Below are positions 43,542 through 45,919 of a stretch of 64,000 nucleotides of DNA, piece after piece (within the stretch, counting starts at the first letter, position 1; the number at the start of each line of letters is the position of its first letter). Both the position numbers and the translations under genes were made by a program. Source of the DNA: Oscillospiraceae bacterium (GTDB taxonomy: Bacteria > Bacillota > Clostridia > Oscillospirales > Oscillospiraceae); contig SVLH01000002.1 of the NCBI GenBank assembly GCA_015068025.1, positions 1 through 64,000 of the forward strand, in the 5' to 3' direction. A model generated the notes under the pieces. The model made no database searches. It saw only the letters and a program-made list of their open reading frames with translations, and had not been told where the DNA came from.

Positions 43542-43646
43542 ATGGCGGAATTAAGGCTGTGGATTCTATATAAAACACTATAAAATACGAGGACGACCTC
43601 ACCCGGAAAACCCTTCCGGATGAGGTCGTTTTGTTGCTTTGTGCTA

Positions 43647-44049
43647 TCAGCCCAGGGGGAGCACACTCTTGCCGTATTCCTCGTTGGGGATCTGGTCCAT
43701 GGCGCTGTAAATGGCAGACAGGCCACAGAAAATGCCAACGAAACCGGCGGTGGTGATGGTGTGGTTGCCGGTGAAATCGCCGGCGGCCAGCAGCATGAAC
43801 AGCACGGTCAGAGAACCGAAGACCACCTGTGTTGCACGGTTGTGCTTCAGGGTGCCGACAAACATGAACAGGGTGAAGATGCCCCACAGCAGCAGGTACC
43901 ACCCATGGCAACGATCACGATGGAAAGGGGCAGAAAGCCTGCATTGTGCAGGTTCAGCAGCACGGTGGTCATGCCAAAGCCCAGCAGACCCAGAGGCCCG
44001 GATTTGCCATTTTTGCTTTCCGTTCAGTGGACAGGGTTATTTCCTCCAT
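43647..44049 (-). pseudogene. Acetate uptake transporter (GPR1/FUN34/YaaH, SatP-like), decayed
   Basis: [18 protein letters not shown] then frameshift into [32 protein letters not shown], then missing middle, then [44 protein letters not shown]...[29 protein letters not shown]. Confidence 0.8.
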
Positions 44050-44147
44050 ACACAAATCAATTTTGGCCGAACGTTGGCATTATATGCCCCCAAAAAGCAG
44101 AAAGGCAAGGGCGAATGGAATTTGTTGTATCGGTGTTTGCGGAGCAA

Positions 44148-44732
44148 TTACACCTTGTGCTTCATCAAACCGTGGCGGTTGCAATACACATAGAGATACC
44201 CGTGGCCGCGGAAGCGGAATCTGCACGCTGCGCTGCCTTCCGGATAGAGCTTTACCAGCTCGAATTTGTCCGCTGTTACATAGGCAAGAAAAGAGATGTA
44301 GTGTTGCTTGGTCATGGGGTGGTCAACGACGATATACTGCTCGTCCTCCACGGCTTCCGTGGTGATGCGGTGGGCATCGTCCACATCCTCTGTCTCCAAA
44401 GGCGGGAGCGTTACGCCGCAGCAGGCGACGACGGCCTCACCCATGGCGTGGAGGATGTTGCCGCATACGGGACACACATAGAGCCTGGAGCGCAGCATGT
44501 TGGCAGAGAGATTCTGGTTGATCACGGTATTTCCCGACATCAGCTCCATCACGGAAACGTCCAGCGCTGCAGCAAGGGAGGTCAGCAGAGAGATGTCCGG
44601 CAGACCCTTCGCTGTTTCCCATTTGGACACGGTCTTGGGGCTGACGTCGATGCGGTCGGCCAGCTCGGCCTGTGTCATTTTTTTGGATTCGCGCAGTCGT
44701 TTGATGGTGGCGCCTGTTACATAGTGATCCAT
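44148..44732 (-). CDS. XRE-family HTH regulator fused to a desulfoferrodoxin-like (superoxide-reductase fold) domain
   Basis: HTH: IKRLRESKKMTQAELADRIDVSPKTVSKWETAKGLPDISLLTSLAAAL; YVCPVCGNILH...VACCGVTL; DHPMTKQHYISF...YCNRHGLMK. Confidence 0.85.
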   Translation of the reverse strand: MDHYVTGATIKRLRESKKMTQAELADRIDVSPKTVSKWETAKGLPDISLLTSLAAALDVSVMELMSGNTVINQNLSANMLRSRLYVCPVCGNILHAMGEAVVACCGVTLPPLETEDVDDAHRITTEAVEDEQYIVVDHPMTKQHYISFLAYVTADKFELVKLYPEGSAACRFRFRGHGYLYVYCNRHGLMKHKV

Positions 44733-44833
44733 CCTTGCGCCCTCCTTTTCTTCAAATTGTTTTTATGATAAACCGGAATGCCGCCGGATGCAACCTACGG
44801 TTCGTGGAGAGGGGCGAGAACTGCGTTTTGGAA

Positions 44834-44862
44834 TTGACTTGCGGCGAGATTTATTGTAAAAT
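44834..44862 (+). promoter_or_regulatory. Putative sigma-A promoter of ddh
   Basis: TTGACT, 17-nt spacer, TAAAAT. Confidence 0.6.
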
Positions 44863-44926
44863 GTGGCGTCGGCAAATGTGCGGTTTCGCACAGGTGTCTG
44901 TATGCTTTTTCGGGAAGGTGACCGAT

Positions 44927-45919
44927 ATGAACGATCCAATCAGAATTGCAATTTTAGGCTACGGAAATCTTGGCAGAGGGGTGGAACTTGCGCTTCGAGC
45001 CAATCCGGATATGAAGCTTTCCGCAGTTTTTACAAGAAGAAATCCGGCGGCGCTGAAGCTCCTGACAGAGGGTGTTCCCGTATACGGGATCGACAGGCTG
45101 ACAGCAATGCACAGCGAGATCGATGTGCTGATCCTCTGCGGCGGTAGTGCAAAGGATCTGCCCGTGCAGAGCGCGGAATACGCAAAATATTTCAACATTG
45201 TGGACAGCTTTGACAATCACTCTGCCATCCCCGAGCATTTTGAGCGGTGCGACCGCCGCGCGCTGGAGGGTGGAAAAACGGCAGTGATCTCTGTGGGTTG
45301 GGATCCCGGCATGTTCAGTCTGCAGCGTCTGCTTGGCAACTGCATCCTGCCCAACGGCAGTGACTACACCTTCTGGGGCAGAGGCGTCAGCCAGGGACAT
45401 TCCGATGCCATCCGCCGTATCGACGGTGTGAAAAACGGCAAGCAGTACACGGTGCCCGTGCCCGCCGCGCTGGAAAAGGTGCGCAGCGGCGAGAATCCCG
45501 AACTGACCACCCGGGAAAAGCACACCCGCGAATGCTTCGTTGTGGCGGAGGAGGGCGCGGACCTGCAGCGCATCGAGCAGGAGATCAAGACGATGCCCGC
45601 CTACTTCGCACCCTACGATACCACGGTGCATTTCATCTCCCAGGAGGAGTTTGACCGCGACCACGGCGGCATGGCACACGGCGGTTTTGTGATGCGCAGC
45701 GGCGTCACCGGCATCAACGGCGAGACCCGCCAGATGATCGAGTATTCCCTGAAGCTGGGCTCTAATCCGGAGTTTACTGCCAGCGTGCTGGTATGCTGCG
45801 CCAGAGCGGCATATCGTATGAATGCGGCCGGTCTCACGGGTGCAAAGACCATCTTTGACATTCCACCCGCATCTCTCTCTCCCAAGAGCGGGGAAGAACT
45901 TCGCAGAACGCTGCTGTAA
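44927..45919 (+). CDS. ddh: meso-diaminopimelate dehydrogenase
   Basis: IRIAILGYGNLGRGVELALRANPDMKL, ISVGWDPGMFSLQRLLG, YTFWGRGVSQGHSDAIRRIDGV. Confidence 0.93.
   Translation: MNDPIRIAILGYGNLGRGVELALRANPDMKLSAVFTRRNPAALKLLTEGVPVYGIDRLTAMHSEIDVLILCGGSAKDLPVQSAEYAKYFNIVDSFDNHSAIPEHFERCDRRALEGGKTAVISVGWDPGMFSLQRLLGNCILPNGSDYTFWGRGVSQGHSDAIRRIDGVKNGKQYTVPVPAALEKVRSGENPELTTREKHTRECFVVAEEGADLQRIEQEIKTMPAYFAPYDTTVHFISQEEFDRDHGGMAHGGFVMRSGVTGINGETRQMIEYSLKLGSNPEFTASVLVCCARAAYRMNAAGLTGAKTIFDIPPASLSPKSGEELRRTLL

Follow-up and report, generated by a model that had tools for sequence, protein, structure and literature searches.

The combination of domains described here is already known: SORGOdb catalogued it in 2011, when it named an HTH-Dx-SOR class of 19 proteins in which an N-terminal HTH precedes a desulforedoxin and superoxide reductase (SOR) module (PMC3116461). 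Our protein belongs to that class by architecture, and in the text of the SORGOdb article the class is defined by architecture alone, with no operator, target or function given (PMC3116461). The iron domain resembles the class I SORs, or desulfoferrodoxins (2ji2, 1dfx and 1y07), in its fold, in the ligands of both metal centres and in the HPMxxxH and CNxHG motifs, but the fused proteins carry an extra HTH, have a centre I loop that is two residues shorter, lack a Glu-Lys pair before the first ligand His, show a near-invariant Lys at HPMxKxH, and form a separate clade. With XRE/HTH_3 repressors such as P22 c2 they share the HTH fold and an inverted-repeat operator over the promoter, whereas their effector part is an iron domain and their recognisable target is restricted to their own promoter. 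HppE, HEPD and MPnS are likewise built from an XRE-like HTH and an enzyme domain with mononuclear iron, but that domain is a cupin, while the fused family has the SOR fold and an operator that is conserved. TrtA of Treponema denticola (PMC12724145), also an XRE-type regulator and one that acts in the oxygen stress of an anaerobe, was considered as a characterised member and set aside, as it is a protein of 104 aa with no SOR domain. No functional study of the class was found in open-licence PubMed Central literature, in line with an earlier note on this DNA that knew of no characterised member, and what is reported below on the operator and how it covaries with the HTH, on self-targeting and on a linked flavoprotein appears to be undescribed in the open-licence literature searched.

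The window, a 64,000 nt stretch of a contig from an Oscillospiraceae bacterium (a gut-type anaerobe), carries one gene of this class (Table 1). The earlier note had placed an open reading frame at the same position without stating its strand, which is minus; the plus-strand ORFs across the interval are mechanical overlaps of this gene. Its reading of the product as an XRE-type HTH fused to a Dx-SOR-like iron domain agrees with the profile searches and with structure prediction, both of which it had proposed as checks. The Pfam search detected HTH_3 with an E-value of 8.9e-16 and PF01880 (Desulfoferrodox) on residues 136-191 at 23.8 bits, above the gathering score of 22.2, while PF06397 (Desulfoferrod_N) gave a sub-threshold hint (E 0.2). 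TIGR00320 (dfx_rbo) covers residues 82-191 (E 3.8e-10), scoring 40 bits against an equivalog cut-off of 146.9, and a phmmer search of the PDB aligned desulfoferrodoxin 2ji2 to residues 81-191 (E 2.2e-7). When the profile of the fused domains was compared with that of standalone Clostridial SORs, the two matched with a probability of 99.9 (E 1.8e-31). An AlphaFold model built from 53 homologues had a mean pLDDT of 90.8 and a pTM of 0.63, the latter leaving the orientation of the domains unfixed. Its C-terminal part superposed on Dx-SOR structures, and 1vzg, 2ji2, 1dfx and 1y07 were the best Foldseek matches in the PDB (target TM about 0.71-0.77, top E 1.7e-9); the HTH was matched by the P22 c2 repressor with a target TM of 0.87-0.89.

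Table 1. Predicted features of the HTH-Dx-SOR locus, numbered from the first letter of the window.
Feature	Position	Strand	Remarks
HTH-Dx-SOR gene (P0001)	44148..44732	minus	194 aa + stop; profile searches, orthologues
HTH_3 DNA-binding domain	44541..44705	minus	aa 10-64; recognition-helix Lys33
Desulforedoxin-like centre I	44418..44474	minus	C87/C90/C104/C105, CX2CX13CC; PF06397 sub-threshold
SOR-like centre II domain	44151..44393	minus	about aa 114-194; near-invariant K142; PF01880 above cut-off
Ribosome-binding site GGAGG	44741..44745	minus	8 nt upstream of ATG
-10 element TATCAT	44765..44770	minus	17 bp from -35
-35 element TTGCAT	44788..44793	minus	TTG common to operator; identical geometry in homologues
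Predicted operator TCCACG-AAC-CGTAGGTTG	44791..44808	minus	imperfect inverted repeat over -35
Divergent ddh promoter TTGACT-N17-TAAAAT	44834..44862	plus	ddh ATG at 44927

Nine metal ligands are present in the window protein, and the five of centre II (H121, H138, H144, C184 and H187) are complete, as the earlier note had listed them. Its comparison of the other four with a desulforedoxin-type centre I stands as far as the cysteines go but not for their spacing, which is CX2CX13CC instead of the CX2CX15CC of classical Dx-SORs (PMC3116461). Across 53 diverse homologues, no change is seen at the centre I cysteines, H138, H144 or C184, and hardly any at H121 and H187, a conservation well beyond what chance would give. 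In a larger set of 128 distinct fused domains, the centre I CC pair is found in 126 and the Lys of HPMxKxH in 127, and the fifth-ligand His is replaced by Asp in nine members and by Gln in one. Two fused homologues (L069 and L077) have the CC of centre I altered to CH.

Ahead of the first ligand His, the window protein reads DA where standalone SORs have Glu-Lys. The pair occurs in none of the 128 fused domains and in all 19 standalone SORs compared, so the absence of the Lys, pointed out in the earlier note, is a trait of the whole family, and a tree separates the fused from the standalone domains with a split support of 0.998. The conclusion that had been drawn from it, that a protein missing this Lys is a sensor and not an enzyme, is weak. 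A SOR need not follow the consensus throughout, as that of N. equitans functions without the conserved Glu (according to a title listed in PMC3116461), and the Lys of HPMxKxH is almost always there, so that the lack of Glu-Lys does not, judged on sequence, by itself exclude SOR activity. A second clade (L023-L032 and L243-L282) has CS(R/Q)(D/H)G instead of CNxHG, and the fifth ligand is gone in several of its members (CSRDG) and the first His in some; because of these lost ligand His residues, SOR catalysis cannot be general in the family.

The collection of fused homologues came to at least 158 distinct sequences. Of 86 genomes assigned to the same genus, well over half have a full-length member, as do about 47 of 295 from the order, and relatives are encoded in at least 508 genome stretches, mainly of gut Clostridia but also of Peptostreptococcus and Treponema ruminis. 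A further SOR match was found in 33 of the 47 genomes of the order with the fusion and in 114 of the 248 without it (Fisher p 0.002, a value that ignores relatedness and rests on counts made by hand from the match table, at least one of the 33 genomes having two fused copies). Since genomes with the fusion mostly show a further SOR match, the fusion is usually no replacement for the enzyme; the window's genome also encodes a canonical Dx-SOR with the EKH motif, adjoining a flavodiiron-like gene. In Faecalibacterium longum and in G314 (L061 5776-6918, L242/L130), the HTH-Dx-SOR protein continues into a C-terminal GNAT acetyltransferase, the single ORF coding for about 380-400 aa; the operator is retained. 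One standalone SOR (L227, an open frame of 211 aa) carries a C-terminal Cys-rich domain that by eye looks like a BFD-like [2Fe-2S] domain.

Clustering of the ORFs around 80 homologue loci revealed no neighbouring gene family that recurs beyond chance, and a neighbour cluster seen at five of these loci consists of antisense ORFs. The divergent ddh gene was considered as a partner or target and rejected, as it stands beside the gene only in the window's genome and in its 90% relative. Just downstream, at 43560-44050 on the minus strand, is a remnant of a GPR1/FUN34/YaaH-type acetate transporter; it is split over two frames, as the word decayed in the earlier note implied, and the sequence read downstream of the gene in the 90% relative (L033) does not show it. 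The absence of a shared partner also fits the earlier note, for which the neighbours of this one locus pointed to no obvious regulon.

An alignment of the upstream regions of homologues revealed a conserved inverted repeat, TCYACG-NNN-CGTAGGTTG, which in the window reads TCCACGAACCGTAGGTTG and lies within the intergenic region (44733-44926) that the earlier note had named for EMSA. Nearly all homologues have an inverted repeat of the form YYACG-NNN-CGTAG-GTTG, the TTG of which is that of the -35 box, and because the -35 hexamer begins with it, the predicted operator overlaps the -35. Upstream sequence was available for 72 homologues; each agrees with the consensus at 11 or more of 15 bases, and in 45 of the 72 a -10 element follows exactly 17 bp past the TTGNNN hexamer. 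When the sequence of the arms was disregarded, and only a 5-3-5 palindrome with at most one mismatch, a TTG at a fixed place and a -10 at 16-18 bp were demanded, 115 of 157 upstream regions passed, against 1.2% of mononucleotide shuffles. Most of the failures have visible yet imperfect sites, and about five to eight homologues among the 157 have no recognisable site. The operators of the second clade read CAACG-NNN-CGTTG or CTACG-NNN-CGTAGATTG.

The arms of the operator covary with the HTH. Residue 33, the second position of the recognition segment, predicts them: Lys33 goes with CTACG/CGTAG arms (CGTAG in 91 of 94), Gln33 with CAACG/CGTTG arms (CGTTG in 24 of 24), and one His-Arg helix with CGCCG/CGGCG arms. 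The association has a Fisher p of 4e-22, which overstates the independence of the members because they are related. The second clade is itself mixed at this position (15 Lys, 24 Gln and 3 Arg), and there too the arms track the residue. This covariation is the strongest support for the view that the HTH-Dx-SOR protein itself reads the predicted operator.

Where else the operator occurs was then a matter of genome scans. Within the window's genome (1.54 Mb, 71% complete), a site with zero mismatches was found nowhere but at the gene's own promoter, and the canonical Dx-SOR gene of that genome has no operator. Two sites with one mismatch look like chance, being at about the control frequency; one is in an RNA-polymerase-subunit-like coding frame and the other has no promoter-like setting. 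Exact CTACGNNNCGTAGGTTG occurs at eight sites in 86 genomes, six of them at the own gene, and at ten sites in 295 genomes, eight of them at the own gene. A scan for the right half-site with promoter geometry, blind to the left arm, gave 16 sites in 86 genomes. Of these, 14 precede HTH-Dx-SOR genes and one an FMN-reductase-like gene (G067); the last, where a contig ends (G073), we read as the regulator's own promoter parted from its gene by an insertion. Applied to 290 genomes, the same scan gave 17 own-gene sites and one case (G253) in which the operator is followed by an HTH remnant and then an FMN_red gene; the remaining matches were rejected, every one examined lacking the left arm. A class-level scan of 391 genomes found three sites, two at the own gene and a third (G686) that precedes nothing recognisable, and none for a control pattern. 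Most genomes without the fusion lack the operator. In about 375 genomes the full operator-promoter precedes only the HTH-Dx-SOR gene or, rarely, that of an FMN-reductase-like flavoprotein, with the proviso that the scans see recognisable sites and that weak or degenerate targets would escape them. In one genome (G278), an operator stands before a truncated HTH pseudogene copy (L156), a second and decaying regulator. Two contigs of another (G063, C128 and C133) carry a tandem repeat of about 67 bp with TTACGGGGCGTGGGTTG, which accounts for ten one-mismatch matches and represents a repeat, not operators.

The recurring second target is a single FMN_red (PF03358) subfamily with a CxxCxxCx7C motif, which we take to recall iron-sulfur flavoproteins; it has a weak PDB match to 7d38. 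Its gene lies directly downstream of the regulator at L099, L011/L190 and L102 (where it is interrupted), and alone behind the operator or a local variant of it at L150/L192, L191 and L193 (where it is broken), while at L154 the order is operator, broken HTH and FMN_red. The link recurs, though in no more than a handful of genomes, and a search of the window's genome (71% complete) gave no close copy. In G073, the regulator-FMN_red pair is split, with the promoter and start codon at the end of one contig and a start-less body on another (C5, L152, and C19, L011), probably by an insertion or an assembly break.

In our favoured reading, to which we give a probability of about 0.55, the protein is a dedicated autorepressor that controls its own synthesis through its iron domain. 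Comparison of sequences and models shows the fold and ligands, the operator, its overlap with the promoter, its covariation with the HTH and a near-absence of other recognisable targets; the mode of action set out next, dimerisation and any catalysis included, is inferred. A dimer of the N-terminal HTH would bind YYACG-NNN-CGTAG over its own -35 and block transcription, and the C-terminal Dx-SOR domain would gate this binding. The position of the operator over the -35 suggests repression, which we infer in preference to activation; in principle, a site overlapping the -35 might also serve an activator. The iron centre would be a natural switch: the DNA may be released when this centre is oxidised, when its five-coordinate Fe binds superoxide, NO or some other ligand, or when iron is lost, whereupon more protein would be made that consumes or buffers the signal, and reduction would restore repression. 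Sequence cannot tell a redox, iron, NO or other signal apart. In the few species where an FMN-reductase-like flavoprotein is under the same operator, it would plausibly supply electrons. Because the iron domain would gate the protein's own synthesis, the effector is probably the protein itself, an SOR-like scavenger or iron-redox protein under its own control rather than one that commands a large regulon; a regulator that targets itself alone makes sense if the protein itself acts, by scavenging, electron transfer or iron binding. More tentatively, sensor, repressor and effector may all be united in the one polypeptide, with an oxidised iron domain derepressing its own gene only and a flavoprotein reductase having been recruited in some lineages.

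The earlier note had instead favoured a redox/O2-/NO/Fe sensor, a role that would imply control over a distinct set of stress or metabolic genes at other loci. The union of an HTH with an iron domain stands, and with the catalytic pair missing, no fixed neighbour, and a co-regulated FMN_red in some genomes indicating that non-self targets can exist, such a role can be argued. Nonetheless, the recognisable operator is essentially confined to the own promoter, where the operator-promoter signature nearly always occurs once per genome, and it is lacking even at the canonical Dx-SOR gene of the same genome; this argues against a wider redox regulon and, together with the weakness of the argument from the Lys, makes the proposal unlikely. 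The regulon had also been called not obvious, which is right in that the neighbours offer no clue but understates the case, given where the operator is found; a sensor of uncertain regulon is therefore supported in part only. Doubtful, too, is the converse idea of a true superoxide reductase provided with its own repressor domain, in which Lys142 replaces the catalytic Lys and the flavoprotein is the reductase, although it partly overlaps the autorepressor reading. It would explain the retention of all five ligands in the clade of the window protein, the near-invariant Lys at HPMxKxH, the co-regulation of the flavoprotein and the logic of an autoregulator with no other target, the product itself being active; set against this are the complete lack of the EKH motif in fused proteins when all the standalone SORs compared have it, the second SOR that genomes with the fusion usually match, and the ligand losses in the second clade.

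Two further explanations would separate the fusion from its operator. Foldseek returns HppE, HEPD and MPnS, which pair an XRE-like HTH with an iron enzyme domain, and by analogy the HTH might be a structural part of an enzyme that does not bind DNA; a conserved promoter operator whose arms covary with the recognition helix makes this very improbable. Alternatively, the operator could belong to another regulator, such as a paralogous XRE, the fusion itself only sensing or acting. Paralogous XRE proteins of about 270-310 aa with a membrane-anchor-like segment do lie behind a related operator, CTACGNNNCGTAGGGTG (L166, L167 and L170). Yet the variants differ consistently (GGTTG versus GGGTG), each in step with the HTH encoded next to it, and most fusion-less genomes lack the operator, so that we regard this explanation as improbable. 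Judging from these sequences, a self-operator design may be common to the HTH subfamily of the XRE paralogues.

Since 2011 the HTH-Dx-SOR class has stood in the catalogue with no function assigned, yet it is common. With an operator defined whose arms change along with the recognition helix, a single DNA probe and a single protein would suffice for a direct test of this orphan class. If the self-targeting design is borne out, it would illustrate how a strict anaerobe can match the amount of an iron-oxygen protein to its redox state with no regulon involved. If sensor, repressor and effector are indeed one polypeptide, the gene would constitute a one-gene redox homeostat, unlike the usual design of a sensor plus regulon exemplified by OxyR, PerR and SoxR.
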